From assembly GCA_037833965.1 (NCBI GenBank), contig AP031356.1, positions 20,792,501 to 20,856,500 of the forward strand: a stretch of 64,000 nucleotides of DNA. Direction: 5' to 3'. The notes beneath the pieces are model-generated. The model saw only the letters and a list, made by a program, of their open reading frames with translations, did not search any database and was not told the DNA's origin. A program made the translations under genes and the position numbers. Below are positions 12,041 through 58,783 of the stretch, in pieces. The stretch is from Marchantia polymorpha subsp. ruderalis. Lineage: Eukaryota > Streptophyta > Marchantiopsida > Marchantiales > Marchantiaceae. Each line of letters begins with the position of its first letter. Positions within the stretch are counted from its first letter, which is position 1.

Positions 12041-12058
12041 TCCCCGGCAGCGGCGCCA
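12041..12058 (-). other. Primer binding site, element C
   Basis: Same 18-bp sequence and same 22-bp spacing from the LTR end as in element A. Confidence 0.85.
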
Positions 12059-15000: not shown

Positions 15001-15354
15001 TGGACTCGTTGGAATCAGTGCGTCGAGCTCTTTCCAACGGGACCCAACTTGGTCAAGGCGCCCGAGGGTTGACCTAATTATGGAGGGTTTCCCTACAGCC
15101 GCGGACGCGATCTCCGAAGGCGGGTTTTGCGCCTTGCGTCGTAGGGGTCCTAACTGCAGAGCTCGCAGGGAGGGTGGTGCCTGTCCTCACTGCTGCACCC
15201 CCAATCCCAGATTCTACAAGATCCCTCGAGAATCCCCGCGATCTTCCGGATTCACTCCGTTTTGATGTACCGAAGGCTATTTACAATGCTGCCAGGGTAC
15301 AGTTTTCCAAAAATGTTTTAATTTCCTCAAAATTGCCAAAAGTGGGGTACCACA
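12081..15354 (-). repeat. LTR C, shortened family-1 LTR (3,274 bp)
   Basis: Both termini match the family (TGTGGTACCCC… / …GGGTTATTACA in element orientation), but the LTR is about 2.1 kb shorter than A, H and I. It keeps the palindrome-rich 5' part, the coding part for the acidic and coiled-coil C-terminal region (ending at 13087), the TATA box and R-U5. The U3 frame is a remnant with several breaks. Because the PBS follows at the normal place, this short LTR was probably part of an element that transposed. Confidence 0.85.
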
Positions 15355-17711: not shown

Positions 17712-19205
17712 CGGATGAGGATTTAATCCGCAGGCAACAGTCAGAGTGTGGTGAATTGAGAGCGCAGCGTGCGGAGGCCGAATCGTAGTTAGTGGTAATT
17801 AAAGAGGATCGCAGGCGAGAGGCAGATCGCACGAAGGAGGAGATGGCGAGGCGTGTCGCCCACTGTCTCAAGGGCTACGCCCACTAGGAAGTGGTGGCGC
17901 AGGAGAAACTCACACTGCGTGAGTTTGAACTTCGCGCAGCAGGGTTGTTGGCAGGCGACAGCAGGAGTCGGCGGAAGGTAGCGAAGAAGCTAGACGTTTT
18001 TCTGTCAAAGGCGCGGGATACCATGTCCACCCTCGAGGTGGAGGTGTCCGCGGCGTTGCAGCGGTTGGGACTGCGCAGTCGAGCGGAAGACTGGCAGGGT
18101 AGGGAGTTAGTGCGCGGCAGTCCGCCGCGCAAGAGACGTAGCACAGGTTCCGCGGAGTGTAGTGTAGCGTGGTTCCGTGCGGGCGTGTAGCGTAGTGCAG
18201 TGTAGTGCTAGTTAGGATTTAGAAGGTATAAAATAGTTCAAGGCGTTTTGCCTTGGGTTCTTTCCTAATTTCAGAAGTACAGATCAGGAACTCATTTTCT
18301 CTGCGTGTTCGTGCCCTTAGTTCTGTCACCACGCACGAGGGGCTACACCTTAGCGTTCCGCATTGTGTAGCTGAAGGCCTTCGGCCGAATGTTCAGAGCT
18401 AGTACATTGGTTAGAGACTTCAGTAGTTCGGATCTACACCTGCGGGTGACTGCCGATGCTCAGAGCCAGTGACTAGTTGGATACTTGAATAGTTTTGCCC
18501 CTACACCTTCGAGTGTCTGTTTCTGATTGTACTCCTTCGGGATTTTTCCCCTGAATGCCAAAGTGAAGTTTTGCTACTTCGTGTAAGCCTTGGTTGTAAA
18601 TTCAGGTTACGTTGAAGCAGGTGCCTTGAGGGTAGCCCATGTAGTATTTCTGGGAATGACAAGTGCCTGAGAATTCAAACTCTTCAATAGACTGTTGTTG
18701 TGTTACTGGAATGTTTCTCAGTGAGACCTTCTGTGCGGACCTGTGTTCTCTGCGCGTTTTGTGAGTTGAGAGTGTTGTTCATCGCGTATGAGTGACTTCG
18801 ATCCGAAGTAGGCAGTCCAAACCGGGTTTCCTACACTAGCAGCAAGCTAGTGGAAGTGTTGTAAAAGCCGGAGTTGGGAGTCACTACCCACAGCTTCGCT
18901 GAGTGTACTCTTGAGAGACCTTCCCCCCTGAAATCTTGAGTAGAGGTCCTAACGGATCTCTGGGTTGTGTTTCTGTAGTTTCAGGTGTGTGTGTGAATGT
19001 GTGTGTGTTACGCTGCATTGTGCGACCTCCGAGTGCGCTCCGAGTGGACACTTGCAGTATTTCTGGGAGTGACAGTCGCCTGAGAATTCAAACTCCTCAA
19101 TAGTCTGTTAAACGTGACACTTTGTACCCTGTGTGTTCCTCTGTCCTTGTGGGTTCGACCTCTCTACCACTATATTGCAGTTTTAGCCTTTAGTGGGTTA
19201 TTACA
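17712..19205 (+). repeat. LTR E, right part, cut by LTR D
   Basis: Continues the U3 frame exactly where LTR D entered (…DEDLIRRQQSECGELRAQ…), to the shared C-terminus at 18190, then the TATA box (18227-18236) and R-U5 to the CA end at 19205. It is more diverged from A, B, D and I than those are from each other, as expected for an older copy. Its frame is broken, with a few breaks. AAACT (19206-19210) is its expected TSD. Confidence 0.85.
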
Positions 19206-19593
19206 AAACTCTAATCTCTCTCAATTCCAAATGTCGCGCACTCAATTTTCTCTCTGCCACCGGGTAAATCTCTGCGCGGTGGTGTCTAGAACGTCTCTCG
19301 GCTAGAAGGTGGACGCGCGCAGCTTGCACAAGGAATTGAAATCGCAAATTCAAGAATGGAGTGTCCTCTGTCCGCTCGTAGGGTGTCATGGTCGGCTCTC
19401 GGTCGTGAACGTCGAATCACTTGATGGTTGCACCGGCTCGGAGGTACAACGGCCCTCTCTCTCACGCGCGGCTTCACGCTCCGCCGATGCCCCTTCACTC
19501 ACACGCTCGAAATGGCAATTTGAACTCCGCCAGTGTACTACGCCGCGGCCATGATCGCGCAGCGCCGAAGGCGGATTTCTCGCCGACGCGCTA
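19206..19593 (-). repeat. LTR fragment N (related LTR, minus orientation)
   Basis: The minus strand encodes a diverged version of the N-terminal segment of the LTR protein (LNLRFQFLVQAARVHLLAE, compare LNSRFQSLVRATRIHLLAAE) plus the GC-rich sequence upstream. LTR E inserted at its left edge; its right edge is an abrupt junction with pol coding sequence and no LTR terminus, so it is a truncated remnant. Confidence 0.7.
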
Positions 19594-21294
19594 CGGTTTC
19601 GAGAAGTTCGGATTGGAACAGACCCTTCCATGTCTATGTAGACACGTCGGCATTTGCAATCGGAGTGGTTCTCAGTCAGAAGGACGACAACAAGAAGGAC
19701 TACCCGATTTACTTCGCGAGCCGTCAGTTGTCAGTAGCAGAGAAGAAGTACACAACAACTGAGAGGGAGGCGTTGGGAATGGTGTACTCCTGTAAGAAGT
19801 TCAGACATTATTTGATCTGCTATGAGTTCGTGTTTCATGTGGATCATTACGCATTACAGCACCTGGTGAAGAAGGCGGATCTGTCCGGACGAATTGCCAG
19901 GTGGGTACTACTGCTGCAGGAATTCACCTACACTGTGCAGACTAGGAAGGGCGTTCACCATGAGAACGCGGACTACCTCTCCAGACTATGGACCGAACCC
20001 ATAGAAGAGAGAGTAGTGGATGATTTTCCCGACGAACAACTTTTTCAGTTGTCCGCCAGCCATGAGTCTAGGTATGCGGACTTGTACAGGTTTCTGCTCA
20101 CACTCCAATGTCCGGAAGGATTGGATGCGGAGCAGCGCACAGTCTTCGTTCATAAAGCGGGACCTTACCAGCTCCAACAGGGGGTCTTATTCAAGAAAAT
20201 GGCAGATGAGAGGCTGTGCAGATGCTTAGAGGAGTCCGAAGTTCCGCGAGTCGTTAAAGCCATGCACACAGAAGACGCTGGTGGTCATTACTCCACCAGG
20301 AATACGGTGACCAAAATTGTGAATGCAGGATACTGGTGGCCGACGATGTTCAAAGATGTACACGACTACGTTCGCAAATGCGATAGCTGCCAGAGGACGG
20401 GAAGGCCGACTCCGACCACGAGATGGCCTCTGACACCGATCATGCCCTTGGCACCATTTGAAAAATGGGGGATAGACTTCGTGGGACCAATACAACCTGC
20501 CACTAAAGGCACGCGCAGGCGCTACATATTGGTAGCAACGGACTATGCGACCAAGATGGTGGAGGTAGAGGCCACAAGGCACGACGACGCAGCAACAGTA
20601 GCAAGGTTCCTATTCGAATCAATCATCACACGCTACGGGTGTCCACTAGAAATAGTCAGTGACAGGGGAACGCACTTTTTGAATCAGGTGATAGAAAGTT
20701 TGACACGGCACTTCCAGATTAAGCATCGGAAGACTACTCCATACAACCCCAAGGCGAATGGTCTGACAGAGAAATCCAATGGATTGCTCTGCAAGATACT
20801 CCTCAAGGTGACTGTGAACCATGCTCACGACTGGGACACCAAGCTACCGGCCGCCTTATGGGCATACAGAACTGCAGAGAAAGTCACCACCAGGCAAACA
20901 CCTTACTTTCTGGTTTATGGGCAGCATCCGATCTTTCCTATCGAATTCGAGATACCCGCTGGATGCGGAAGAAAGTCAGGCCTATCGACTGCAAGAAGTC
21001 ATGGCACTGGAGGAAAGACGTCAAGAGGCCGAAGATCAAACAAAGCAACTACAGCTCAGGCGGAAGGAGAAGTACGATCGGAGACTCAAACCAGTACTAC
21101 TCGAGAAGGGCGACTTGGCTCTGCTCTACGATAGCAGACATGCTAGATTTCCAGGCAAGCTACACTTGAGATGGATGGGACCATACAAGGTGATCAAAGT
21201 TTTCCCCAATGGCTCAATCCAGCTCCCAGAATTGACAGGAGAATGGCTAGGCACCCGCGTGAACGGGTGGCGTCTAAAGAAATACCACGTGTAA
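19594..21294 (+). CDS. pol remnant: RNase H, integrase, element F
   Basis: Only the 3' part of a Ty3/Gypsy pol is present. It starts at RNase H (VYVDTSAFAIG, FASRQLS, TTTEREALGMVYSCKKFRHYL, HVDHYALQHL), followed by the integrase HHCC finger (H…GGHYSTRNT…CDSCQRTG), the catalytic core with DFVGP, SDRGTHF and a downstream Glu in GLTEKSNG, and a GPY/F-type module (GPYKVIKVFPNGSIQLPEL). It ends at KKYHV without a visible chromodomain, which argues against a chromovirus. The order RNase H before integrase is Gypsy, not Copia. It looks broken, with about one break, and the RT part is missing. A PPT and 3' LTR follow directly. Confidence 0.9.
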
Positions 21295-21316: not shown

Positions 21317-21331
21317 TTGAGGAGGGGGGCA
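21317..21331 (+). other. Polypurine tract of element F
   Basis: TTGAGGAGGGGGGCA directly precedes the TGTGGTAACACAC start of the 3' LTR. The same tract, reversed, sits next to LTR K at 58219-58233, linking the two elements. Confidence 0.85.
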
Positions 21332-21839
21332 TGTGGTAACACACTTTTTGTTTTTTTTGCAGAATTTAAACAATTTTAGAAAACTAGTACCGATGCAGTG
21401 TCTGTAGTTAGAAAAGGGTACGTTAAATAGAGTGGTACGCTCAGGGAAGGGCCTCCGGGCCAAGGGACATTAGGCGAGCCGCCTTCGGCTCAACCGCCTT
21501 CGGCGCTGCGCTTTTGGCGGAAGCGCCACCGACAAATGCGCATTCGGCGGAGGCACCTCCAGCGCAGGACCTATCGCAGGAGCAGGACCTAACGGAGGAG
21601 CGAGATGACAGTTGGAAGGAGGAAACACGTGTGTGCGATGCACAATTGCAATCCGCGCAGACACCTTTCGCACGAACGCCTTTAGCGGTGGACGCCTTCG
21701 GCGATGCAGAGTTAGCAGAAGCCGGACGGGCGGGCGTGTGGTAAGACACTTTTTGTTTTTGTGCAGAATTTAAACAATTTTAGAAAACAAGTACCGAAGC
21801 AGTGTCTGTAGTTAGAAAAGGGTACGTTAAATAGAGTGG
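21332..21839 (+). repeat. Duplicated LTR start in LTR F
   Basis: The first ~100 bp of the LTR (21332-21433) recur almost unchanged at 21738-21839 (TGTGGTAA.ACAC … GTACGTTAAATAGAGTGG). Between them, 21434-21737 resembles part of the Pro/Ala-rich coding region of the LTR protein, with GCCTTCGGCG motifs. Confidence 0.8.
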
Positions 21840-22911
21840 ATTGAGGAGATCGTCACGAGGTCACGAAGAATCGCGAAGTCGGATGTACCAGCGCCAAATG
21901 TCTTCGGCGCCTTCGGCAAAAGCTCCTTTTCTGAGGTGTCTCTACTCACGCGCTTCCAGCGCTTAAGGAAGCTACGCTTCCGGCGCAGACACCTCCGGAG
22001 GAGATTTTGCTAAAGACGTCAGAAGAACGGCACGGACCTCTGAAGGCTTCCGACCATGAGTGCGCCTTCGGCGATGCGCCGCTAGCGCGGAAAGGGAAAC
22101 CTTCATAACGATCGTAATACACATTAGTTCCAATTGGTTGAAGTTGCATTGGAAAAAGCTCGGGACGCTCGTCCTAACGAGCTCAAGAGCGTTGGAGATG
22201 GATCAGGGACGAAGAAGTTATGAGCATCGGAAAACTCGTAGCCGGACATGCGCCGTTCGCGCTAGGGTTCACAGTCGGAAAGGACTCCCGTACGCCTTCG
22301 GCGATGCGCCTTCGGCGGAATCACGCGCTCATGGGAGGAAATCAACTCAGAGTCGGAAGCGCCTTTGGCGGCTGCGCAACGGAAGAAAAGCTCCGGCCGG
22401 ATGTACGCCTCCGACGTGGCGCTGATAGGCGGATGCGCTGGCATGATTTGCGCCGGCGGGATATGCGCCGTCAGCAATAGACGAGGCAGAACGGACAAAA
22501 CAAGTGGTACGAATACGCGCCGGCGTAATTCGCGCCGACTGGATGTGCGCCTCCAGCAAGGCGCCGACGGATAAGGTACACGCCAGCGGCGACACGCCTC
22601 CGGTGATGGTCGGGTTAGGAAAAGACAACATAGCCGACGTATACACTGCGGCGAACTCGAGTCCGGAAGACGGTGGCGGCGGGAGAATTCAACATTCACG
22701 CATGCGAATGCGCGTAGTGCGGAGACGTGAATTCGAGCATGCAAGGGCGAACCGTTAGGCCGTATAGCCGGCTGCGTAAATTGTAACCAGTAAGAACGTT
22801 GGACGATTTTGAATTCGGAGAAGAAAAGACTGCTCTCCAGTCTCATTCTCTCATTCTTGATTTTGCGATTTCCAGCTTCCAAGATTACGCGCAAGGGCGG
22901 AGAGACCTACA

Positions 22912-25752
22912 GTGAGAGGAGAGAGTGCGGAGACGAGTTGCGCAAGGATCTTGACAGACCTTGGAGAGAATTTGCGAGTAGCGAACTTGAGCGCAAGAAG
23001 AGAGAGTGATTGCAGTCAGTGCTGGAGCGGCCGACGCGCAGCGGCGATTGTGAGAGAGCGAGCGGAAGGGAGAACTTCTGTGTGTGCAGGAAACGCAATG
23101 TCAAAGGTCCCCCAGCTACGAGTGTCTCCACTCAGGGTGCCGCAGATCGGTCTACGCGCATTCCAAGATGTGCTGACAGGGCTGAAGCTCGATTTCCTCC
23201 TGTGGGGATGGAACTGGACATGTCCGGAGATGGTGCGCGAGTATCTGCAGGAGAGACACAAGCCCTCACGAGGATTCCGTCCACATCTAGAGATGTGGGA
23301 CATTTGTGACTGGGCGCAGGTGTTGGGCAGGTGTGCCGGCGAGGAAGGGTATCTCCTCTTCGAGCCCGATAGCGTGAAGGTGTCCAAGGACGAAGAAATC
23401 TCCTACAATGAGCTTTTCAAAGTTGCCAGGCATCCCAAGAACGGTTTCCGGACGCGGGATTACAAAGATCGATTGCGGAGAAATGTCGCGACTGCATTGT
23501 TGTAGATATTGCAGCCGACCAAGACCGCTTACATGCATGGTTGGCAAGTAGGATTCGTGGAGCTAGTGTTGTCAGGAGCTCCAGTGCATTGGGCACGGCT
23601 CCTGTGGAAGGTGACGCGCCAACATGCGCAAGAAGAGAGAGGAGGAACCCTCAATCATCTTTCGCCTTACCTGATTGTGTTTTATCGGGCGATGGGATGT
23701 TTGACAAATTCAGAGCGGACACGGTTTCCGCTGCTGACCCGGAGCTATCCAGGTAGATACTCGCGGGAGGCCGAAGTAGACACCGATCCAGACGAGGCAC
23801 CTGCCAGTCCGCCTCCGGCTCCGCCCCCAGCAAGAGCAGCAGAAGAACGTCGAAGTGAGCGCGCTCCGCGAAAGCGGAAGTGGGATGAGAGACCTGAGGA
23901 CAGGCAGCCGGAAGTGCCAGCTGCGCCGACTTGTAGTCGGCCAACCAACGAGCCTCACAGCCGACCGAAACAGAGGGCACGCAAAGTGCCAACTAGCACT
24001 GAGGAGACCGGGCATACTCCGGTCCGGCGGAGTATCCTGCCCACGCAGGAGGAGATAATCGCGCAGATTCTGGGGAAGTCGGCAAATACCTCTGCGCAGA
24101 AGGCACCAATGCCTTCGGAAGAAGACAGACGGACTGACAGTCGGCCGACTACGAGTCGGGCGACTGAAGGTCGACAAACGGAAGGAAGGCCGACGGAGCG
24201 GCGCGTTGAACCGGACAGCAGGCCGGAAGCAGAAGAGAGTTTGGCTGACGAGCCAACAACCCTCAGAGGGTCGTCTTCGGCGGAAGGCACTTCTGGGAAA
24301 ACGCCGCCAGCAAGCAGGCCAAGTGGAGTGAAGACGCGTAGGGTGTATCCGACTGCCAGTCGGACATCTGCTAGTCGGCCGACTGCGAGTCGGTCAACAG
24401 AGAGTCGGCCAGATTCGCCGACTGCGAGACGGACAGGGCCGGCGACCAGTGTGCGGACGCCTTCGGCGGACGCACCTCCAGCGAAGACACCTTCCGCGCA
24501 GATCGCGCCGGAAGGGCAGGCAGCAGAAGCGGGCGGTGCAAAGGTGACAAAAGTCACTGCGGCGTCGACCCCTTCGGAAACCGAAGATCGAGCCGGAACA
24601 GGGGCTCAAGCAGTGGGATCCCCCACTACCTTGGATATTTTAGCAGGGAGTGGAGCGGCAGTCGCGGCGAAAGCTGCTGCGCGCCACACTTCCAGGGAGT
24701 CGCCAAGGGATTCGGTGGCGACGGAAATCCTCGAAACGGAGGATGAGACGAGCTCGGAAGAGCGTGAAGCGGACTCTGTGCAGAAAACGCCAACAGGGGT
24801 GTTGTGCGAGCAGATAGTTCCACTCCTGCAATATCTGGATCGCAAGACATCCAAGTACTCGGGTACCGGAAAACCGCAGTCTTACGTGGAGACTGTCAAG
24901 CGCAGAACGAGGAGCAAGGTGGCCACTTGGGCCTCTAGGTGCCAAACATTGCAGGATAGGAACGCTACCCTCCGACAGCACCTGGCGGTCACGCAGAAGC
25001 TATACCAAACCTTGCAACAGCAGAGGGAGGATGCGGCGACGAAAAACCAGGCGGATGCCGAGCTAATGCGGGCAAAGATCGAGTCGGAATTGCAGGAAGA
25101 GCGGAGACAAAACCGCATCTTAGCAGAAAAGCTTGCGCGCCAGAAGCGCGCCTTAGAAGAAAGTCAAAGTACACGCACGGAGGATGAGGAATTGTTGCGC
25201 AACTTGCAATCCGAGTGCGCGGATTTGAGGGCGCAGCGCGCAGATGCGGAAATGCAGCTAGCAGAGGTGGAAGGCAGCTGCCGGGCGCGAGAAGAGTTGG
25301 CGACGCGGGTGACTCACTGTCTAAAAGGATACGCCCATTGGGAGGTGGCAGCTCATGAGAAGATCACACTCAGGGAGTTCGAGCTTCGGGCGGCGGCATT
25401 GACGGAGGGTGACAGTCGGAGTCGGCGGCGAGTAGCAAGGAAATTAGAATCCTTCTTGTCGGGTGCGCGCGACACTATGGCGCACTTGGAGTCGGAAGTG
25501 ACTGCAGCCCTCCGGCGTCTGGGGTTGCGCAGCCGGTCGGAAGATTGGCAAGGTAGAGATAGAGAGCGAGGCAGTCCGGCGCGCAGGAGGCGCAGCACCG
25601 GATCTGCAGAGTGCAGTAGCGTAGTTTGGTTTCGTGCAAGTGTTGCGAGTAGTAGATATGATAGCGTAGTGTTAGTTAGGACCTTTCGGAAGTGCAGATC
25701 AGGAACTCACTTTCTTGGCGTGTTTGTGCATTTTGGTCCTGGCACCACGTAG
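22912..25752 (+). CDS. LTR-encoded coiled-coil protein, family-2 homologue
   Basis: A diverged homologue of the family-1 LTR protein. The N-terminal region keeps RAFQDVL, LDFLLWGWN, MVREYL, PSRGFRPH, DWAQVLGRCAG, KNGFRTRDYKDR, PVHWA, RQHAQEE and GGTLNHLSPYLI. The middle is Pro/Thr/Arg-rich and differs strongly in length and content. The C-terminal third keeps EQIVPLLQYLDRK, a long coiled coil, HCLKGYAHWEV, LREFELRAA, SRSRRRVARKL and RLGLRSRSEDWQGR with the basic tail. The end lies in U3 as in family 1. It looks broken, with about one break. I do not recognise the fold or function. Confidence 0.8.
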
Positions 25753-26552
25753 AGAAGCTGCAGCATAGCGAAGTTACCGTATGTTGTAGTTGAAGGCCTT
25801 CGGCTGAATGTTCAGAGCTAGCACCCGGTTAGAGACTTGAGTAGTGCGGATCTGCACCTGCGGGTGATTTCTGATGCTCAGAGCCGGCTGCGAGTTAGAG
25901 ACTTGAACAGTTCCTCCTTACTCCTTCGAGTGACATATCCTGATTGTACTCCTACGGAAAGTTTCCCCTGAATGCCAAAGTGAAGTTTTATTACTTCGTG
26001 TAAGCCTTGGTTTGCAATTCAGGTTGTGTGTGTGTTACTGGATTGTGTCTCAGTTAAGTTTTCAGTCGGGCCTGTACCCCCTACGGTTGGTGTGAGTCGA
26101 GGGTGACGTCCACGGCGTATGAAGGGGCTTCGTTCCGAAGTGGGAAGTCCAGTCCGGGTTCCCTACGCTAGTTCCTGGCGGAAGGGCAGTAAAAGCCGGA
26201 GTGGGAGTCACTACCTGCAGAACCTCTGAGTGAACTTTTGAGACACTTTCCCCCTGAAATCCGAAGCGGAGGTCCTGACCGACCTCCGAGTTGTGCTTTT
26301 GCCAGTTTCAGGTGTGTGTGTGTGTGTGTGTGTTGAGTGACTACGCTGTACTGTGCATCCTCCGAGCATCCTCCGAGTCGAGCCTCCGAGTCGAGCACTG
26401 CAGTATTTCTGGGAGTGACAGTCGCCTGAGAATTCAAACTCTACAAAAGTCTGTTAAACGTGACACTTTTAACTCTGTGTGTTGCCTCTGTCCCTGTGGG
26501 TTCGATCTTTTTACCACCATACTGCAGTTTTAGCCTTTGGTGGGTTATTACA

Positions 26553-27620: not shown

Positions 27621-28129
27621 ATGTATGTGGTACCCCACTTTTGGCAATTTTGAGGAAATTAAAACATTTTTGGAAAACTGTACCCTGGCAGCATTGTAAA
27701 TAGCCTTCGGTACATCAAAACGGAGTGAATCCGGAAGATCGCGGGGATTCTCGAGGGATCTTGTAGAAAGTAGAATTTGGGGTGCAGCAGTAGGGACAGG
27801 CACCACCCTCCCTGCGAGCTCTGCAGTTAGGATCCCTGCGACGCAAGGCGCAAAACCCGCCTTCGGAGGTTGCGTCCGCGGCGGTAGGGAAATCCTTCAT
27901 AATTAGGTCGACCCTCGGGCGCCTTGACCGAGTTAGGGTCTCGTTGGAAAGAGCTCGACGCACTGATCCCAACGAGTCCAAGAACGCTTGGAACGGATGA
28001 GGACTTAGGGAGTTATCACTATTAGAAGATACGTAGACGTTCGCCTTCGGCGGAAGTAGTTCGCCACCGGCGGGAATTCCGCCTACGCGGAAGGGGGAAT
28101 CAAGTTTTGTCCTATGCGCGGACGAAGGA

Positions 28130-28585
28130 AGTTCGCCTGTGCACAGGCAAAGTAGGGTTTGGGGAGGCGCGAAGTCCGCCTACGCACAGGCGTTCGCCTG
28201 TGCACAGGCGCTTCGGCGTCGGCGGGAAATCCGCCTTGGGCCCTAGAAATGCGCCTTGTGAGGTAGAAAGTGTACGGCGCCTTCCGCGCCAGCGCGGCGC
28301 CGCGGACGAGCAAGGAGCCGCCAGAGGAATCAAATCCGTACGGACCATGCGGACGGGACGGGTGGATGCGCTCTTGGACGGACGGAGTTGCGGCGGCGGA
28401 AGCGCCGACGAAGAGACAAGGAACGGACAGACTGGACGGAGACGGCTGACCACGGTCAACGCCTTCGGCGCCAGCGCGACGCCGCGCACGGAATTCGCCT
28501 GCGCACAGGCGAGCGCCTGTGCACAGGAGAATGAAGTTCCGCGCCGGCGGAGAATCCGCCGAGGAGTCTGCCTGCGCACAGGCAG
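28130..28585 (+). repeat. Cluster of CCTGTGCACAGG palindromes, LTR H 5' part
   Basis: Repeated perfect or near-perfect palindromes of the form CGCCTGTGCACAGGCG, with CCTGCGCACAGG variants, in non-coding U3 upstream of the frame. They are mixed with CGCCTTCGGCG-type palindromes. Equivalent clusters lie at 5200-5660, 14450-14860 and 34380-34870. Confidence 0.85.
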
Positions 28586-28870
28586 GAGTTGAACTTTTGT
28601 CCGACATGCGGACACACGCGTCAAGGCAGAAGGGGATTGGCCGAGGGGCGGTACGAACAAGTGTACCGCGCAAGGCGGAAAACTCGCCTTCGGCGCTACG
28701 CTCCCATGTCCGCGGGGTAATACGCTCGCGGAGTTCAAATCCGCCAATTCGAGCGTGAGAGTTTAATCGGCGACGGCGGAGCGTGAAGCCGCGCGTGAGA
28801 GCGGAGACCGTTCCAGCGTAGAGCCGGCGCGGCCATCAAGTGAGACGTCCTCCACGAGCAAGAGCCGACC

Positions 28871-31800
28871 ATGACCTTCGACCGGGAGGCGGAGAGCGTC
28901 CCATTCTTGAATTCGCGATTCCAATCTCTTGTGCGCGCTGCGCGTATCCATCTGCTGGCTGCTAAACATTCTCGGCGTCGCTGCACAGGGGATTTCTTGG
29001 TGATTGAGGGAGAAGTGAGTGCGCGGGATTTGGAATTGAGGGCGATTAGAGTTTGCCGAGAGAGAAAGGAGCTCGGGCGGTGCGGAAGTAGAATGAGCGG
29101 GCGAGCGAACCCCAGGAACGCAATGACGAGACCGGGCAGATTGCGGATGGTGCCACTTCGCCTACCACAGAACGGGCTGCGCGCTTTCGAGGAGCGCTTA
29201 ATAGCAAGAAAGCTCGATTTCTTGCTATGGGGATGGAACTACATCTGTGCGAATATGGTGCGCGAGTGGCTAGAGCCACAGGGACCACCCTCGCGCGGAT
29301 TGCGTCCGCATGTTGATCGGTGGACAGTCCAAGATTGGGCGCAGGCATTGGGAAGATGTGCCGGCATGCCAGGGCATCTCCTTTTCGACAGTGAGAGCAT
29401 CAAGGTGACCAAGCAAGAAGAGGCGCAATTTGTGGAGCTGTTCAAGACCGGGAGGTCTACCAAGAATGGGTACAGGACCCGTGATTACAAGGATCGATTT
29501 CGCCGGACTTTGTCCGCGGCGCTGATGCAATTACAGCAGCCACACCGCGCCTGCTACATCACATTGTGGCAGGTCTCTTTTGTGGAGTGCGTCATCGAGG
29601 GAACTCCAATTCACTGGGCGAGCATCCTGCACAGGGTGATGCGACAGCACGCTTTTGAGGAGAAAGGGGGAACTCTAAACCATCTCTCTCCGTTCCTCAT
29701 CAATTTTTATCGACAGCGGAATTGTTTGACAGCGGCGGAGCTTGAGCATTTTCCGCCGTTGTCCGTCGACCATCCCGGGAAGTATGTGCGGGAGAATGAG
29801 GTCGACACTGATGCAGAGGAGTCACCGACTTCCACCCCATCAAGGCGGAGGGACGAAGGGAGAAACACTCCTGCAGCACGAGTGCCGCGGAAGCGGCGAT
29901 GGAGAGAAGAGTCCGAAGAGGAGGAGCATCAAGAACCCTCTGCTCCCATGTAATAACCCACTAAAGGCTAAAACTGCAATATAGTGGTAGAAAGGTCGAA
30001 CCCACAGGGACAGAGGAACACACAGGGTACAAAGTGTCATGTTTAACAGACTATTGAGGAGTTTGAATTCTCAGGCGACTGTCACTCCCAGAAATACTGC
30101 AAGTGTCCACTCGGAGCGCACTCGGAGGTCGCACAGTGCAGCGTAACACACACACACACACACCTGAAACTACAGAAACACAACCCAGAGATCCGTTAGG
30201 ACCTCTACTCAAGATTTCAGGGGGGAAAAGTCTCTCGAGAGTACACTCAGCGAAGCTGCGGGTAGTGACTCCCAACTCCGGCTTTTACAACACTTCCGCT
30301 AGCTTGCTGCTAGCGTAGGAAACCCGGTTTGGACTGCCTACTTCGGATCGAAGTCACTCATACGCGGTGAACAACACTCTCAACTCACAAAACGCGCAGA
30401 GAACACAGGTCCGCACTGAAGGACTCACTGTGAAACATTCCAGTAACACAACAACAGTCTATTGAAGAGTTTGAATTCTCAGGCACTTGTCATTCCCAGA
30501 AATACTACAGGGGTTACCCTGAAGGCACCTGCTGCAGCGTAACCTGAATTCACAACCAAGGCTTACACGAAGTAACAAAACTTCACTTTGGCATTCAGGG
30601 GAAAAATCCCAAGGGAGTACAATCAGAAAGGAACACTCGAAGGTGTAGGGGCGAAACTGTTCAAGTATCTAACTAGTCACTGGCTCTGAGCATCGGCAGT
30701 CACCCGCAGGTGCAGATCCGAACTACTCAAGTCTCTAACCAATGGACTAGCTCTGAACATTCGGCCGAAGGCCTTCAGCTACAAAATGCGGAACGCTAAG
30801 TTGTAACTCCTCGTGCGTGGTGACAGAACTCAAGGACACAAACACGCAAAGGAAATGGGTTCCTGATCTGCACTTCTGATGGGAAAGAACCCCAGGCAAA
30901 ACGCCTGGAACTATTTTATACCTTCTAAGTCCTACCTAACACTACACTGCACTACGCTACACGCCTGCACGGAACCACGCTACACTACACTCCGCGGAAC
31001 CTGTACTACGTCTCCTGCGCGGCCGACTGCCGCGCACTAACTCCCTACCCTGCCAATCTTCCGCTCGACTGCGCAGTCCCAAACGCTGCAACGCCGCGGA
31101 CACCTCCACTTCGAGGGCGGACATGGTATCCTGTGCCTTCGACAGAAAGGCATCGAGCTTCTTTGCTACCTTCCGCCGACTCCTACTGTCGCCTGACAAC
31201 AACCCGGCTGCGCGTAATTCAAACTCACGCAGTGTGAGTTTCTCCTGCGCCTTCACTTCCCAGTGGGCGTAGCCCTTGAGACAGTGGGCGACTCGCCTCG
31301 CCGTCTCCACCTTCGTGCGATCCGCCTCCTTCCTGCGATCCTCTTCAATTATCACTAATTGCGATTCGGCTTCAGCACGTTGCGCTCTCAATTCGCCACA
31401 CTCTGACTGTAACCTGCGGATTAACTCTTCATCCGCCTGCCGTGCGAGCTGACATTGTTCCAACAACCGCGTCTGTCGCACGAGCTCCTCTGACAAAATC
31501 CGATTCTGGGCCTGCTTAGAAATGAGTGCTTCCTTGACCTTCACCTGCTCCTTGGTGAGCTCGTCCAGTTTCTCATCCTTCATCTTCTCGGAGTGCTTGT
31601 AGAATTTCTGATTAAGTTTGTACTGACCCCACAAGCATGCATGCTTCTCCTTCAATTCCCTCAACTCCTGGTCCACTCTAGCTAATAGCTTGCTGGTGTG
31701 GACTTTAGTGCGAGTCCGCCTGCGCACTAATTCGATGTAAGATCCCGGCTGGAGTGGGTCGGCGTATTTATCGACCTTGCGATCCAAGTACCTCAGCAAC

Positions 31801-34800
31801 GGAATCACCTGCTCAGAGAGCGCCGCCGCCGGCGCTCCAACAATTTCCTCCTCCTCCTCCTCGGTGTCTTCTGCTCCTGACATTTCTTCCGTGGAGCCTC
31901 CGTCGTCATCATCCGAGTGGAGAATTTCAGTCGCCATTGATTGCGTCGGCGACTGCCCCGAGTGGGGCTGCACGTCATCGACGTGTGCTGCCTGCGAAGG
32001 CACGGCTGCGGCCTCGCTGCTCGTCGCCAAAATGTCCAAGGCGGAAGGCGAATGTACCCGTGCGGCATCCCCGTCTCTCGCTTGTTGGTTGTCTACCGCG
32101 TCCTCTCTGCCGCCGTCGCCCGCCGCCGAAGGCGATCGAGCGGAGGGTGGCTGCGCGGGGTTTGATTGCGCATCGCGCATCGAAATTTCATCCCGCGGAC
32201 AGTCACTCCGCTCCATCGTCTGTTGCTGCTCCCTTGATCGGTCCGTGGGGGCTGTGCCCGGCCCGTGCGCAGGCGCAATTGCCGGCGCCTTGTCCGCCGC
32301 AGGCGTAGCGCCGCGGACATCCATCGCCGAAGGCGACATGGCCGGGGGCCGCTCGCCCGATGTCCCTTGGCCTATAGGCCCTACCGCCGAAGGCGCAACT
32401 ATCGGCGGACTTCCCGCCGATGGTGCGGCCTCCGCACGCTCCCTGCTCGTATCTCCTCGGCTCGAAGGCCCTGGCGCCGAAGGCGCAAATTGCGGCGCGT
32501 GGTGCGCCGGAGGGTCTGGCCCCGAGGGCCGGTGTCTCGTAGGCGGTTCTTCCGCCGGCTCCTTCCCCTTCCTACGTTGGAACGGGGGTGATTCTTGCCT
32601 GTGCACCGGCGGCACGTGTGGAGGTGTCCTGTGTACAGGCGACCTGTGCACAGGTGAGCGCCTGTGCACAGGCGGACTGCTCCTTCCCACGCGTAAGCGT
32701 AGATCCACGTCCACTTGTGTTCGCCGGTCCGCGGAGGCTCGTCCGTCCGCGGAGGCTCGTCTGTGTGCAAACGGAACATCTGTCCGCATCGCACGTGGTA
32801 ACTCCGAAGGCCCTTGGCCCGTAGGCGGCCTCTCTCCCGACGAGGTTGCAGCGGGGCCCGTTGCTCCTGCGGTCGTCCGCGCTTCCTCATGCTTCTCTGG
32901 CGACGCACTTCCTTTCTCCGTCGCAATCGTCGCCGTGTCCGCACTGTCGGCTGGTAACACCAGTCTGCGTGCCTTCTGCTTCGGCCGGCTGTATGGCTCG
33001 CACAGCGGCCGCGGTCGAATGGGAGCAGAGGGTTCTTGGTGCTGCTCCTCTTCAGACTCTTCCCTCCATCGCCGCTTCCGCGGCACTCGTGCTGCAGGAG
33101 TGTGTCTCCCTTCGTCCCTCCGTCTTGATGGGGTAGAAGTCGGTGACTCCTCTGCATCAGTGTCGACCTCATTCTCCCGCACATACTTCCCGGGATGGTC
33201 GATGGACAATGGCGGAAAATGTTCAAGCTCCGCCGCTGTCAAACAATTCCGCTGTCGATAAAAATTGATGAGGAAAGGAGAAAGATGGTTTAGAGTTCCC
33301 CCCTTCTCCTCAAACGCGTGCTGTCGCATCACCCTGTGCAGGATGCTCGCCCAGTGAATTGGAGTTCCCTCGATGACGCACTCCACGAAAGAGACCTGCC
33401 ACAATGTGATGTAGCAGGCGCGGTGCGGCTGCAGTAATTGCATCAGCGCCGCGGACAAAGTCCGGCGAAATCGATCCTTGTAATCACGGGTCCTGTACCC
33501 ATTCTTGGTAGACCTCCCGGTCTTGAACAGCTCCACAAATTGCGCCTCTTCCTGCTTGGTCACCTTGATGCTCTCACTGTCGAAAAGAAGATGCCCTGGC
33601 ATGCCAGCACACCTTCCCAACGCCTGCGCCCAATCTTGGACTGTCCACCGGTCAACATGCGGACGCAATCCGCGCGAGGGTGGTCCCTGTGGCTCTAGCC
33701 ACTCGCGCACCATATTCGCACAGATGTAGTTCCATCCCCATAGCAAGAAATCGAGCTTTCTTGCTATTAAGCGCTCCTCGAAAGCGCGCAGCCCGTTCTG
33801 TGGTAGGCGAAGTGGCACCATCCGCAATCTGCTCGGTCTCGTCATTGCGTTCCTGGGGTTCGCTCGCCCGCTCATTCTACTTCCGCACCGCCCGAGCTTC
33901 TTTCTCTCTCGGCAAACTCTAATCGCCCTCAATTCCAACTCACGCGCATTCACTTCTCCCTCAATCAACAAGAAATTTCCTGTGCGGCGACGTCGAGAAT
34001 GTTCAGCAGCCAGCAGATGGATGCGCGTAGCGCGCACAAGAGATTGGAATCGCGAATTCAAGAATGGGACGTTCTCCGCCGCCCGGTCGAAGGTCATGGT
34101 CGGCTCCTGCTCGTGAAGAACGTCTCACTTGATGGCCGCGCCGGCTGTACGCTGGAACGGTCTTCGCTCTCACGCGCGGCTTCACGCTCCGCCGTCGTCG
34201 ATTAAACTCTCACGCTCGAATTGGCGGATTTGAACTCCGCGAGCGTATTACCCCGCGGACATGGGGGCGTAGCGCCGAAGGCGAGTTTTCCGCCTTGCGC
34301 GGTACACTTGTTCGTACCGCCCCTCGGCCAATCCCCCTCTGCCTTGACGCGTGTGTCCGCATGTCGGACAAAAGTTCAACTCCTGCCTGTGCGCAGGCAG
34401 GAGCCTCGGCGGATTCTCCGCCGGCGCGGAACTTGAACATCCTCCTGTGCACAAGCGTTCGCCTGTGCGCAGGCGAATTCCGTGCGCGGCGTCGCGCTGG
34501 CGCGGAAGGCGTTGACCGTGGTCAGCCGTCTCCGTCCAGTCTGTCCGTTCCTTGTCTCTTCGTCGGCGCTTCCGCCGCCGCAACTCCGTCCGTCCAAGAG
34601 CGCATCCACCCGTGCCGTCCGCATGGTCCGTACCGATTTGATTACTCTGGCGGCTCTTCCGACGTACGCGGCGCTGCGCTGGCGCGGAAGGCGCCGTACA
34701 CTTTCTACCTCACAAGGCGCATTTCTAGGGCCCAAGGCGGATTTTCCGCCGACGCCGAAGCGCCTGTGCACAGGCGAACGCCTGTGCGTAGGCGGACTTC

Positions 34801-37408
34801 GCGCCTTCCCTAACCCTACTTCGCCTGTGCACAGGCGAACGCCTTCGTCCGCGCATAGGACAGAACTTGATTCCCCCTTCCGCGTAGGCGGAATTCGCGC
34901 CGGTGGCGAACTCTTTCCGCCGTAGGCGACCGCCTCCGTTTCTTCCAATAATGATAACTCCCTAAGTCCTCATCCGTTCCAAGCGTTCTTGGACTCGTTG
35001 GAATCAGTGCGTCGAGCTCTTTCCAATGGGACCCTAACTTGGTCAAGGCGCCCGAGGGTTGACCTAATTATGGAGGGTTTCCCTACAGCCGCGGACGCAA
35101 CCTCCGAAGGCGGGTTTTGCGCCTTGCGTCGTAGGGGTCCTAACTGCAGAGCTCGCAGGGAGGGTGGTGTCTGTTTTTACTGCTGCACCCCAATCCCAGA
35201 TTCTACAAGATCCCTCGAGAATCCCCGCGATCTTCCGGATTCACTCCGTTTTGATGTACCGAAGGCTATTTACAATGCTGCCAGGGTACAGTTTTCCAAA
35301 AATGTTTTAATTTCCTCAAAATTGCCAAAAGTGGGGTACCACATCCCATTCGACCGCGGCCGTTGTACGAGTCATACAGCCGGCCGAAGCAGAAGGCACG
35401 CAGACTGGTGTTACCAGCCAACAGTGCGGACACGGCGACGATTGCGACGGAGAAAGGAAGTGCGTCGCCAGAGGAGCATGAGGAAGCGCGGACGACCGCA
35501 GGAGCAACGGACCACGCTGCAACCTCGACGGGCGAGAGGCCGACTACGGGCCAAGGGCCTCCGGAGTTACCACGTGCGTTGCGGACAGGTGTTCCGTTTG
35601 CGCACAGACGAGACTCCGCGGACGGACGAGCCTCCGCGGACAGGCGATCACAGGTGGACGTAGATCTACGCTTACGCGTGGGAAGGAGCAGTCCGCCTGT
35701 GCACAGGCGCTCGCCTGTGCACAGGTCGCCTGTGCACAGGTCACCTCCACACGTGCCGCCTGTGCACAGGCAGGAATCACCCCCGTTCCAACGTAGGAAG
35801 GGGAAGGAGCCGGCGGAAGAGCCGCCTACGAGACACCGGCCCTCGGGGCCAGACCCTCCGGCGCACCACGCGCCGCAATTTGCGCCTTCGGCGCCAGGGC
35901 CTTCGAGCCGCGGAGATACGAGCAGGGAGTGTACGGAGACCACACTATCGGCGGGTAATCCGCCGGTAGATGCGCCTTCGGCGGTAGGGCCTTAGGGCCA
36001 AAGGACATCGGGCGAGCGGCCCCCGGCCATGTCGCCTTTGGCGGTGGACGTCCGCGGCGCTACGCCTGCGGCGGACAAGGCGCCGGCATTTGCGCCTGCG
36101 CACAGGCCAAGCACAGTCCCCACGGACCGATCAAGGGAGCAGCAACAGACGGAGGAGCGGAGTGACTGTCCGCGGGATGAAATTTCGATGCGCGATGCGC
36201 AATCAAACCCCGCGCAGCCACCCTCCGCTCGATCGCCTTCGGCGGCGGGCGTCGGCGGCAGAGAGGACACGGTAGACGACCAACAAGCGAGCGGCGGGGA
36301 TGCCGCACGGGCACATTCGCCTACCGCCTTAGACATTTTGGCGAAGAGCAGCGAGGCTGCAGCCGTTCCTTCGCATGCAGCACACGTCGACGACGTGCAG
36401 CCCCACTCGGGTCAGTCGCCGACGCAATCAATGGCGACTGAAATTCTCCACTCGGATGATGACGACGGAGGCTCCACCGAAGAAATGTCAGGAGCAGAGG
36501 ACACCGAGGAGGAGGAGGAGGAAATTGGAGTGCCGGCGGCGGCGCTCTCTGAGCAGGTGATTCCGTTGCTGAGGTACTTGGATCGCAAGGTCGATAAATA
36601 CGCCGACCCACTTCAGCCGGGATCTTACATTGAGTTAGTGCGCAGGCGGACTCGCACTAAAGTCCACACCAGCAAGCTATTAGCTAGAGTGGATCAGGAG
36701 TTGAGGGAATTGAAGGAGAAGCATGCATGCTTGTGGGGTCAGTATAAACTTAATCAGAAATTCTACAAGTACTCCGAGAAGGTGAGGGATGAGAAACTGG
36801 ACGAGCTCACCAAGGAGCAGGTGAAGGTCAAGGAAGCACTAATTTCTGAGCAGGCCCAGAATCGGATTTTGTCAGAGGAGCTCGTGCGACAGACGCGGTT
36901 GTTGGAACAATGTCAGCTCGCACGGCAGGCGGATGAGGAGTTAATCCGCATGTTACAGTCAGAGTGTGGCGAATTGAGAGCGCAACGTGCTGAGGCCGAA
37001 TCGCAATTAGTGATAATTGAAGAGGATCGCAGGAAGGAGGCAGATCGCACGAAGGTGGAGACGGCGAGGCGTGTCGCCCACTGTCTCAAGGGCTACGCCC
37101 ACTGGGAAGTGAAGGCGCAGGAGAAACTCACACTGCGTGAGTTTGAACTTTGCGCAGCCGGGTTGTTGTCAGGCGACAGTAGGAGTCGGCGGAAGGTAGC
37201 AAAGAAGCTCGATGCTTTTCTGTCGAAGGCACAGGATACCATGTCCGCCCTCGAAGTGGAGGTGTCCGCGGCGTTGCAACGATTGGGACTGCGCAGTCGA
37301 GCGGAAGATTGGCAGGGTAGGGAGTTAGTGCGCGGCAGTCCGCCGCGCAGGAGACGTAGCACAGGTTCCGCGGAGTGTAGTGTAGCGTGGTTCCGCGCAG
37401 GCGTGTAG
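28871..37408 (+). CDS. LTR-encoded coiled-coil protein in H, split by LTR I
   Basis: The U3 frame of H, interrupted by the whole of LTR I (29949-35343). The part before the insertion carries the conserved N-terminal region; the part after carries the Pro/Arg-rich middle and coiled coil to WFRAGV at 37408. Apart from the insertion it has a few breaks. TATA box of H at 37445-37454. Confidence 0.75.
30911..30920 (-). promoter_or_regulatory. LTR I TATA box
   Basis: TATAAAATAG on the minus strand, 37 bp past the stop of the U3 frame, followed by the CCAGGC/GCCTGG hairpin. Confidence 0.7.
30957..34097 (-). CDS. LTR-encoded coiled-coil protein, whole frame (1,046 codons)
   Basis: A single uninterrupted frame lies inside the U3 of a solo LTR. 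Residues ~1-85 are basic. Residues ~90-315 look globular and conserved (LDFLLWGWN, PSRGLRPH, DWAQALGRCAG, KNGYRTRDYKDR, PIHWA, RQHAFEEKGGTLNHLSPFL). Residues ~316-700 are Pro/Arg/Ser/Ala-rich, with VHRRSPVHR repeats encoded by CCTGTGCACAGG palindromes. An acidic stretch (DDDDGGSTEE, EEEEEE) follows, then from ~750 EQVIPLLRYLDRK, a long coiled coil, HCLKGYAHWEV, SRSRRKVAKKLDAFL and a basic tail ending WFRAGV. The stop lies about 37 bp upstream of the LTR TATA box. No signal peptide or membrane segment. It is not gag or pol, and I do not recognise the family. The start is the first ATG; ATGs near residues 75 and 85 are alternatives, and conservation begins only near 90. The frame looks whole. 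Confidence 0.85.
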   Translation of the reverse strand: MTFDRAAENVPFLNSRFQSLVRATRIHLLAAEHSRRRRTGNFLLIEGEVNARELELRAIRVCRERKKLGRCGSRMSGRANPRNAMTRPSRLRMVPLRLPQNGLRAFEERLIARKLDFLLWGWNYICANMVREWLEPQGPPSRGLRPHVDRWTVQDWAQALGRCAGMPGHLLFDSESIKVTKQEEAQFVELFKTGRSTKNGYRTRDYKDRFRRTLSAALMQLLQPHRACYITLWQVSFVECVIEGTPIHWASILHRVMRQHAFEEKGGTLNHLSPFLINFYRQRNCLTAAELEHFPPLSIDHPGKYVRENEVDTDAEESPTSTPSRRRDEGRHTPAARVPRKRRWREESEEEQHQEPSAPIRPRPLCEPYSRPKQKARRLVLPADSADTATIATEKGSASPEKHEEARTTAGATGPAATSSGERPPTGQGPSELPRAMRTDVPFAHRRASADGRASADRRTQVDVDLRLRVGRSSPPVHRRSPVHRSPVHRTPPHVPPVHRQESPPFQRRKGKEPAEEPPTRHRPSGPDPPAHHAPQFAPSAPGPSSRGDTSRERAEAAPSAGSPPIVAPSAVGPIGQGTSGERPPAMSPSAMDVRGATPAADKAPAIAPAHGPGTAPTDRSREQQQTMERSDCPRDEISMRDAQSNPAQPPSARSPSAAGDGGREDAVDNQQARDGDAARVHSPSALDILATSSEAAAVPSQAAHVDDVQPHSGQSPTQSMATEILHSDDDDGGSTEEMSGAEDTEEEEEEIVGAPAAALSEQVIPLLRYLDRKVDKYADPLQPGSYIELVRRRTRTKVHTSKLLARVDQELRELKEKHACLWGQYKLNQKFYKHSEKMKDEKLDELTKEQVKVKEALISKQAQNRILSEELVRQTRLLEQCQLARQADEELIRRLQSECGELRAQRAEAESQLVIIEEDRRKEADRTKVETARRVAHCLKGYAHWEVKAQEKLTLREFELRAAGLLSGDSRSRRKVAKKLDAFLSKAQDTMSALEVEVSAALQRLGLRSRAEDWQGRELVRGSRPRRRRSTGSAECSVAWFRAGV

Positions 37409-38989
37409 CGTAGTGCAGTGTAGTGCTAGTTAGGACTTAGAAGGTATAAAATTGTTCCAGGCGTTTTGCCTGGGGTTCTTTCCCATCAGAAGTGCAGATC
37501 AGGAACCCATTTCCTTTGCGTGTTTGTGTACTTGAGTTCTGTCACCACGCACGAGGAGTTACAACTTAGCGTTCCGCATTTTGTAGCTGAAGGCCTTCGG
37601 CCGAATGTTCAGAGCTAGTACATTGGTTAGAGACTTGAGTAGTTCGGATCTGAACCTGCGGGTGACTGCCGATGCTCAGAGCCAGTGACTAGTTAGATAC
37701 TTGAACAGTTTCGCCCCTACACCTTCGAGTGTTTCTTTCTGATTGTACTCCTTGGGATTTTTCCCCTGAATGCCAAAGTGAAGTCTTTGCTACTTCGTGT
37801 AAGCCTTGGTTGTAAATTCAGGTTACGCTGCAGCAGGTGCCTTGAGGGTAACCCCTGTAGTATTTTTGGGAATGACAATTGCCTGAGAATTCAAACTCTT
37901 CAATAGACTGTTGTTGTGTTACTGGAATGTTTCTCAGTGAGTCCTTCAGTGCGGACCTGTGTTCTCTGCGCGTTTTGTGAGTTGAGAGTGTTGTTCACCG
38001 CGTAGGAGTGACTTCGATCCGAAGTAGGCAGTCCAAACCGGGTTTCCTACACTAGCAGCAAGCTAGTGGAAGTGTTGTAAAAGCCGGAGTTGGGAGTCAC
38101 TGCCCGCAGCTTTGCCGAGTGTGCTCGCGAGAGACTTTTCCCCCCTGAAATCTTGAGTAGAGGTCCTAACGGATCTCTGGGTTGTGTTTCTGTAGTTTCA
38201 GGTGTGTGTGTGTGTGTGTTACGCTGCACTGTGCGACCTCCGAGTGCGCTCCGAGTGGACACTTGCAGTATTTCTGGGAGTGACAGTTGCCTGAGAATTC
38301 AAACTCCTCAATAGTCTGTTAAAACGTGACACTTTGTACCCTGTGTGTTCCTCTGTCCCTGTGGGTTCGACCTTTCTACCACTATATTGCAGTTTTAGCC
38401 TTTAGTGGGTTATTACAATGTACGAAGTCATACCACGGGCGGGCGCCATTCATGGTTATGCTAGCCATGCATAGGCTATGCATGGTTGAACTCATTGAGT
38501 TCAACAAAGTTCTAGTTTAGTTGCACATTTAGTTGCACGTAAAGTCGATTCGAAAGGCTGAAATCTTGTCGAGGGAATCAAAATCTTGAAGACACTTATG
38601 GATTCTTGTATCCTTCCCAAGATATTCAAAAAGGACGGGGTACCGTCTGACACTCACGTTCTAGCATCCACCGAGATCTAGCATCCACCGAGAGGGACTG
38701 TCCAAAAAGGCTGAAGAATCATCACGCCAGGAATAACGCGGTCCAATGGCGATCTGCGTGGGATCCTCCCATCTTGAATGCAATATTGCTTCGTCCTCCT
38801 TATCCTTCTCGGCGCACTGGTTGGATAGAACTAGTATCTCCTTATGGCTACGTTCCAAACGAACAAAGAGCATAAAGCAAGTATGGGAAACTGTGAAGTC
38901 AATATGTGTGTGGCCGAGATGGAGGCCCCACAAGAACGACTTCTACGACATAGACGCCAGGTCAACGCTGGGTCCATTTTCCCACGTAC

Positions 38990-58218: not shown

Positions 58219-58233
58219 TGCCCCCCTCCTCAA
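58219..58233 (-). other. Polypurine tract of K-L
   Basis: The minus strand reads TTGAGGAGGGGGGCA, directly before the 3' LTR. Identical to the PPT of element F (21317-21331). Confidence 0.85.
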
Positions 58234-58239
58234 TTGTGA

Positions 58240-58572
58240 GCGCCCACGCGAACATTTGGCTTGAGGGTCTGCCATTGGTGATCCTGTCAACGGACTGCTC
58301 CTAGGTTGGCCTGACCCAGGAAGAGTTCCTGTCGGAGGGATTTCCAATAGAACCGTTAGCTCAATGCTCGCAGTAGGTGAACTAGAACGCCCTTGGCTCC
58401 CAGCAATCGGCGATGGCGATCTTTCTGCAGAGTTCTCACTTTGAGTCTTCTTTGTAGTTCGCTGTTTTTCTTCTACAGCTTCTTTTTTTTTTTTTTTTTT
58501 TTTTTCCGAATCTCGACGGAGCTTACGTGTGGCTCTCGCACTCAGGTCCCCCACACCATCGCTCGTCGACAT
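58240..58572 (-). CDS. gag start remnant in K-L
   Basis: ATG at 58570-58572. The first residues (MSTSDGVGDLSARATRKLRRDSEK) are homologous to the gag starts of elements A and C (MSTGASGSNLSARAVRKFRRDSEK). A poly-A tract (poly-T at 58482-58507 on the plus strand) encodes a Lys run. Only the basic N-terminal leader is kept, with no capsid domain, so it cannot be a working gag. Confidence 0.8.
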
Positions 58573-58587
58573 TCACCGAGCATTCAT

Positions 58588-58783
58588 CTCAAAAGTTCAC
58601 TCAGAGGCTCTGCAGGTAGTGACTCCCACTCCGGCTTTTACAGCCCTTCCGCCAGGAACTAGCGTAGGGAACCCGGACTGGACTTCCCACTTCGGAACGA
58701 AGCCTCTTCATACGCCGTGGACGTCACCCTCGACTCACACCAAACGTAGGGAGTACAGGCCCGACTGAGGACTTAACTGAGAT
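58588..58783 (-). repeat. LTR-derived segment in the K-L leader
   Basis: About 195 bp between gag and PBS match the R-U5 region of LTR F (about 26050-26245; CTCCGGCTTTTAC, GCCAGGAACTAGCGTAGGGAA) more closely than the adjacent K/L LTRs (…CTAGCGGGGGTAC). Confidence 0.75.

Follow-up and report, generated by a model that had tools for sequence, protein, structure and literature searches.

The sag gene of mouse mammary tumour virus (MMTV) and the nef gene of the human and simian immunodeficiency viruses (HIV/SIV) lie in the U3 part of the long terminal repeat (LTR), form the last cistron of the genomic RNA and are copied to both LTRs, nef being only partly inside U3. Plant LTRs are treated as regulatory DNA, and a large selected gene inside one would parallel these retroviral genes. 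An open reading frame (ORF) that is almost certainly a gene under selection within an LTR is described here from Marchantia polymorpha subsp. ruderalis. It is carried by a 5.4-kb LTR of a high-copy Ty3/Gypsy element, at 29949-35343 of a 64,000-nucleotide stretch of contig AP031356.1 (positions 20,792,501 to 20,856,500, forward strand). This whole stretch is called the window, and coordinates refer to it.

The likeness to sag and nef would be one of position: the superfamily and the host are different, the ORF is much longer and no homology is expected. By analogy, the gene may work as the retroviral U3 genes do. Among plant elements, the Athila lineage (Athila, Calypso and Diaspora) resembles the present element in having long LTRs, no chromodomain match and a primer-binding site (PBS) of the tRNA-Asp type, presumably the type here as well. 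It also has gag and pol in one frame, of ~1,891 codons here (with two stops) versus 1,892 in Diaspora (PMC1142308), and Athila has an extra sense ORF after pol (PMC7264820; PMC11728184). However, the extra ORF of Athila lies between pol and the polypurine tract (PPT), whereas the one described here lies past the PPT, wholly inside the LTR. In a sunflower Athila element, a Transposase_32 protein with a nuclear signal is encoded in sense after pol (PMC11728184). Judged by the one-frame gag-pol, the PBS type and the long LTRs, the element would belong to an Athila-like lineage, and the position of its gene would be that of an Athila-like sense 3' extra ORF drawn into the LTR. Retand/Grande, which are plant Gypsy elements too, likewise encode an additional protein that may be nuclear, with TRP28 (PF04195), but it is encoded in antisense between pol and the 3' LTR, in elements with LTRs of 315-1,194 bp (PMC11963269), whereas the ORF here is sense; PF04195 has no match in its protein. 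Env-like ORFs differ in that a transmembrane segment is expected in them, and none is present here. Extra ORFs of plant Gypsy elements have been described from the interior (PMC7264820; PMC11963269), and plant LTRs of up to ~5 kb are known (PMC6317226).

The unit at 29949-35343 has TG...CA ends and a perfect 5-bp target-site duplication (TSD), TCCCA (tcccaTGTAATAACC...GGTACCACAtccca), as the initial annotation had claimed. The uninterrupted frame of 1046 codons that it reported, from ATG to TAG (34097->30957), is also present. It is read from the minus strand and is in sense with the element, since gag, and with it the whole of gag-pol, is encoded on this strand too. The extent of the protein has to be revised, since codons 1-84 are without constraint and a product of 962 amino acids (33845->30957) is more likely. 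The parts of this LTR are as follows.

29949..35343, minus strand: focal solo LTR, 5395 bp, TG...CA ends, TSD TCCCA; U3 starts at 35343 and U5 ends at 29949
33846..34097, minus strand: codons 1-84 of the frame, open, probably 5' untranslated, without coding constraint
30957..33845, minus strand: probable true coding sequence, 962 amino acids, from Met85 of the 1046-codon frame to TAG; constrained from codon 85, with this ATG in 21/21 copies
33108..33845, minus strand: codons 85-330, the basic and conserved N-terminal domain; a low-confidence model makes it helical
31848..33107, minus strand: middle region, codons 331-750, rich in Pro, Ala and Ser and weakly constrained, containing an acidic stretch and, close to its start, clusters of basic residues
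30960..31847, minus strand: C-terminal constrained region, codons 751-1046, coiled-coil-like by inspection, with an Arg-rich tail; aligns with Marchantia relatives
30911..30922, minus strand: TATA box GGTATAAAATAG, ~37 nt past the stop codon, the likely promoter of the genomic RNA; the U3/R border would lie ~30 nt further

The same ends are found elsewhere on 5' LTRs with a PBS and on 3' LTRs with a PPT. The 241-Mb assembly (nine contigs) was searched with short patterns, the reversed patterns giving 0 in every case. It contains 2,921 LTR starts (at most two mismatches), 2,297 copies of the ORF core (at most three), 822 LTR ends followed by the PBS (at most one) and 784 PPTs joined to an LTR start (at most three). 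A similar pattern for LTR end and PBS with up to three mismatches gives 1,249, a count that admits the ORF-less R family described below, and a U5 stretch common to related families occurs 5,189 times. Inward from one 5' LTR copy (L025), the interior contains a PBS, gag with a zinc knuckle (CCHC), protease, reverse transcriptase (RT), RNase H and integrase, followed by GAGGAGGGGGGCA and the next LTR start. This domain search covered that one element, in three pieces split at its stops; the protease match, at 23 bits, is just below the curated cut-off of 24.3, and no Pfam match to a chromodomain or a second RNase H was found in this interior at E 0.001. The gag-pol of the element followed inward is a single frame in three consecutive pieces (183-5858 of L029) separated by two stops. 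The unit at 29949-35343 is an LTR of a Ty3/Gypsy element because copies carry its ends together with a PBS or PPT and because gag, protease, RT, RNase H and integrase are encoded together in one interior. The first 100 LTR starts listed include 16 same-strand pairs with a spacing of 10.9-11.5 kb, which in 13 pairs is 11,174-11,187 bp; at this spacing a complete element should be ~16.6 kb long, with two 5.4-kb LTRs and a 5.8-kb interior. The PBS is presumably of the tRNA-Asp type (17/18 positions against a plant tRNA-Asp sequence).

The ORF is regularly found within these ends. A protein search of the genome yielded 13,817 candidates at first look, of which the best were scored; these comprise 44 full-length copies, 29 of them without an internal stop. 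The focal copy and 20 copies fetched with their flanks were examined. Both LTR ends are present in 20 of the 21: 12 are solo LTRs with a perfect TSD, six are 5' LTRs followed by a PBS (two of which, L015 and L016, have a common flank and look like one duplicated region) and two are 3' LTRs preceded by a PPT, that of L024 being judged by eye. In the remaining copy (L026) the 5' end is present and the 3' end was not found. Moreover, an exact LTR start lies 1,774-1,852 nt upstream of 71 of the 100 first-listed exact matches to the ORF core, compared with 0-2 at six shifted distances, and at least one of the other 29 (L011) is an intact LTR. Copies of the frame outside such units, which would have spoken against the initial annotation, are thus not the rule among the copies examined.

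Further copies were detected in the window by self-comparison and were not selected by protein score. They and the related elements around them are listed here.

765..6153, minus strand: copy A, 5' LTR, ORF frameshifted
725..742, minus strand: PBS of element A (TGGCGCCGCTGCCGGGGA), 22 nt past the LTR end
6154..10528, plus strand: copy B, part of an LTR, ORF with one stop; interrupted by A and situated in gag of C
12081..15354, minus strand: copy C, internally deleted 5' LTR; its part of the ORF is frameshifted
12041..12058, minus strand: PBS of element C, 22 nt past the LTR end
10529..11994, minus strand: part of gag of element C (Retrotrans_gag, E 4e-13), cut by B at 10528; the frame extends by chance to 10516
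15355..17711, plus strand: copy D, part of an LTR, ORF codons 599-1046
17712..19205, plus strand: copy E, part of an LTR, ORF codons 889-1046 with two stops
27626..29949, plus strand: copy N, first part; the focal LTR interrupts this copy, whose TSD is ATGTA
35344..38417, plus strand: copy N, second part, one stop in its part of the ORF
19524..21131, plus strand: S1, a related element, pol region for RNase H and integrase
21319..21329, plus strand: PPT of S1 (GAGGAGGGGGG), directly before the 3' LTR start at 21332
21737..26552, plus strand: S2, member of a diverged subfamily, solo LTR flanked by TSD GGGCG; a homologue of the ORF, now broken, occupies 23035-25644

The differences among copies bear the mark of protein coding. 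In the seven within-family comparisons in the window, the ratio of nonsynonymous to synonymous substitution rates (dN/dS) against the focal frame is 0.25 for A, 0.23 for B, 0.27 for C, 0.30 for D, 0.19 for E, and 0.19 and 0.41 for the two parts of N. The S2 homologue, which has 38% identity over codons 57-1046 of the focal frame, gives a dN/dS of 0.29 at a synonymous divergence (dS) of 1.65. Within the ORF the differences favour third codon positions, and the LTR flanks have no consistent third-position excess. The excess is significant for codons 85-1046 (p 1e-9) and not for codons 1-84 (p 0.12). Among the seven window pieces, the unique variable sites at the first, second and third codon positions number 6, 5 and 10 in codons 1-84, 5, 1 and 22 in codons 85-330, 37, 30 and 53 in codons 331-750, and 20, 21 and 50 in codons 751-1046. 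The polymorphism table of 21 aligned copies (the focal copy, A and 19 fetched copies, L026 being left out for want of its 3' end) agrees with this result, the shared variable sites in codons 1-84 numbering 5, 7 and 3.

Since the constraint is confined to codons 85-1046, the protein probably begins at codon 85 and has 962 amino acids. The ATG at codon 85 is kept in 21/21 aligned copies and that at codon 1 in 19/21. Seven of the 27 relatives found by database search start exactly at the equivalent of Met85, the rest starting elsewhere, and S2 shares the context of Met85. A CCAG directly before GAACGCAATG of Met85, present in 20/21 copies, might be a splice acceptor.

The best overall explanation, given a probability of about 0.78, is that a selected sense gene, perhaps for a nuclear accessory protein, lies in U3 of this Ty3/Gypsy LTR. 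The genomic RNA would start after the gene in the 5' LTR, read through gag-pol and then reach the gene in the 3' LTR. Each genomic RNA would hold the gene once, as the last cistron, because the PPT precedes the gene instead of following it, and reverse transcription would copy it to both ends. Expression of the ~107-kDa protein could rely on a spliced RNA, on a subgenomic one or on a promoter located where U3 begins. The protein would consist of an N-terminal basic domain, a linker that is probably disordered and contains clusters resembling nuclear localization signals (NLS), and a coiled-coil-like C-terminal region.

The placement of the ORF in U3, with the gene carried once at the 3' end of the genomic RNA, is probable, because the TATA box read as the genomic-RNA promoter stands after the stop codon of the ORF; it is put no higher because S2 lacks this box. 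The sequence GGTATAAAATAG is exact in 18/21 aligned copies and has one change in the other three. The R family, which has no ORF in its LTR, carries it as GGTATAAAGTAG at the corresponding position; the R-family LTR realigns with the focal LTR from 9 nt past the stop codon. One member of this family in the window moved very recently, because its two LTRs are identical:

55776..61298, minus strand: R element, ORF-less and non-autonomous, two identical 2443-bp LTRs, 637-bp interior, TSD GTAAT

Only a PBS, the start of gag and a PPT were recognised in its interior. Mobility without the gene in cis would fit either its action in trans or its being dispensable.

Several observations weigh against the proposed explanation. 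The recent transposition of the R element means that the gene is not needed in cis. The U3/R border was set from the TATA box motif alone, the box was not found in the diverged S2 although its LTR carries the ORF, and no AATAAA occurs in the ten LTR sequences scanned. Apart from the focal one, all ORF copies in the window are broken or partial. Because of the shared ancestry of these copies, their sites are to some extent dependent. For copy D the bootstrap interval of dN/dS extends to 1.12, the others remaining below 0.7, and the second part of N has weak codon periodicity. The fetched copies (A is not among them) were ranked by protein score, which favours conserved proteins. This bias does not touch the window copies, and codons 1-84, which belonged to the query as well, provide an internal control. 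Finally, no domain of known function was recognised, there being no convincing Pfam match in the protein, its relatives or pieces of it, and the structure model of the N-terminal domain (pLDDT, a predicted confidence score, of 42) shows nothing beyond a helical tendency and is unusable.

The strongest competing explanation places a promoter at the start of the LTR, at TGTAAATAG (sense positions ~70-78), so that the ORF would lie in the R region or leader and be the first cistron read from the 5' LTR, with gag-pol behind it. The motif is intact in 20/21 copies and present in the R family, and the missing TATA box of S2 would fit as well. However, S2 is also without TGTAAATAG, a better TATA box stands directly past the stop in 21/21 copies and in the ORF-less family, and a leader of more than 4 kb with a 962-codon cistron ahead of gag would be very unusual. 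This arrangement is therefore considered unlikely. With the gene in U3, TGTAAATAG might instead be a second promoter serving the ORF.

Less likely still is that a host gene was captured once by the LTR and is carried as a passenger without a role in the life cycle of the element. Such an origin would agree with the failure to find a homologous retroelement protein of a known family and with the movement of the R element without the gene. But the ORF is common to subfamilies that differ to 38% protein identity (dS ~1.65), so it is an old resident; the differences between copies show purifying selection; and none of the 25 named matches comes from outside Marchantia (8,000 candidates scored). 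A single-copy host gene as the source, which the initial annotation had considered, was not seen, though one diverged host copy could hide behind the thousands of element copies.

There is hardly any room for a frame kept open by chance or base composition, with the Marchantia proteins being over-predicted repeats: the LTR is GC-rich, the named relatives, all hypothetical proteins, come from a single annotation and the first 84 codons are open without constraint, but in 300 first-order Markov simulations of the focal LTR the longest ORF was 372 codons (median 156), codon-position periodicity is found inside the ORF and not consistently outside it, dN/dS is about 0.2-0.4 and relatives exist at 47-52% identity, and for codons 85-1046 the third-position excess rules chance out. 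Equally little speaks for a stand-alone element, which the initial annotation had rightly set aside, or for an interior piece: the focal copy itself adjoins neither a PBS nor a PPT, but the same ends lie 22 nt from a PBS at A and C, 20 of the 21 full-length copies have both LTR ends, the ends and ORF recur in six 5' LTRs with a PBS (counting the same-flank pair as two) and two 3' LTRs with a PPT, and 13 of the 16 spaced LTR-start pairs match an LTR plus interior, so that the PBS- and PPT-flanked copies rule out both.

The 962-residue protein has a mass of 107.5 kDa and an isoelectric point of 9.1. NLS-like clusters are situated at the start of the middle region, and there is no transmembrane segment, the highest hydropathy over 19 residues being 1.14. 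A search with the single sequence found four relatives, at 47-52% identity. With an alignment 27 were found, of which two are unnamed and 25 are named, all of them hypothetical proteins of Marchantia polymorpha; scoring was limited to the 8,000 candidates sharing most words. A hidden Markov model (HMM) search, which the initial annotation had proposed, was run with Pfam and yielded no convincing domain. CENP-K, Extensin and similar weak Pfam matches look like coiled-coil or low-complexity similarity and were rejected. A sequence search of the PDB with the N-terminal alignment gave two matches at E 0.7-0.8, nothing meaningful.

A link to Transposase_32 (PF20167) had been suspected. By eye the order of N-terminal motifs is similar, and the profiles align in the expected register, but the comparison is not significant. 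There is no hmmscan match, and the profile comparison with real members (16 family proteins; effective number of sequences 1.6 on the ORF side) gave a probability of 0.1 and E 0.6. A genome search with the Transposase_32 model gave 0 matches, but its control matched nowhere either. As far as sequence features can tell, the odds that the product is a nuclear accessory protein are about even. A function in element transcription, anti-silencing, nuclear import or targeting would be a guess.

Retroviral U3 genes were known before, and the novelty that the initial annotation had attached to the protein-coding LTR has to be narrowed accordingly. Sense extra ORFs after pol in Athila and 5-kb plant LTRs (PMC6317226) were known as well. 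What stands as new is that a plant LTR encloses a large conserved gene in full. Among the papers in the literature listings, none was recognised that describes a large gene under selection lying entirely within the LTR of a plant element; the coverage of these listings leaves out most subscription journals, so that absence from print is not shown. Nor did a known LTR ORF, which would have spoken against the initial annotation, emerge as a match, no Pfam family being convincing and no plant LTR-internal ORF of this kind being recognised in the same listings. If the explanation is true, a solo LTR can be a unit that codes for protein, and the 25 "hypothetical proteins" of Marchantia may be retrotransposon genes. 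Marchantia is a model plant and offers a tractable test of what the puzzling extra proteins do.

It is possible, though doubtful, that the LTR is a complete gene, with a promoter at the start of U3, the 962-residue coding sequence and a terminator in the R region. A share of the solo LTRs would then be free-standing accessory genes that supply a nuclear DNA-binding protein in trans to autonomous elements and to R-like parasites, possibly steering insertions into related elements. Such steering may be suspected because sequence of the same group adjoins 15 of the 21 copies.

Nesting within the group is common. In the window, A is nested in B, which sits in gag of C; C in turn is inside D, and D inside E. 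The focal LTR interrupts N (27626-29949 and 35344-38417), and S2 lies in the ORF of S1. Genome-wide, sequence of the same group lies at most 250 nt from an outer end in 16/21 full-length copies and abuts in 15 (29949-35343 and loci L001 and L009-L028, with L015/L016 as one same-flank pair). Survivorship in heterochromatin may explain this self-nesting.

In A and C the LTR end (765 and 12081) is 22 nt from the tRNA-Asp-like PBS, and the gag frame begins 86 nt away in both. The spacer between LTR end and PBS (725-764 and 12041-12080) carries an inverted repeat, AAGAAG...CTTCTT. These 22 nt must be removed or tolerated before integration. In the related Calypso and Diaspora the PBS is 5 nt from the LTR end (PMC1142308), compared with 22 nt here.

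At G000:C2:31345293-31390058, five LTR starts are spaced exactly 11,184 bp apart, either a tandem LTR-interior-LTR array or an artefact of assembly. A solo LTR of the R kind, R1, occupies 50573-53270 of the window, with TSD AGTTC. The R-family LTR contains an array of 15-bp repeats (52046-52852, 57264-57800 and 60344-60880), the plus strand of which, antisense to the element, reads as pentapeptide repeats; the frame at 52046-52852, the only array frame scanned, matches Pfam Pentapeptide with E 5e-25. These frames may be a by-product of the repeat, because long frames are open on both strands. A likely host gene is situated at 41637-48655, with a malectin-like domain at 41637-42311 and a piece of a protein kinase at 47860-48237.

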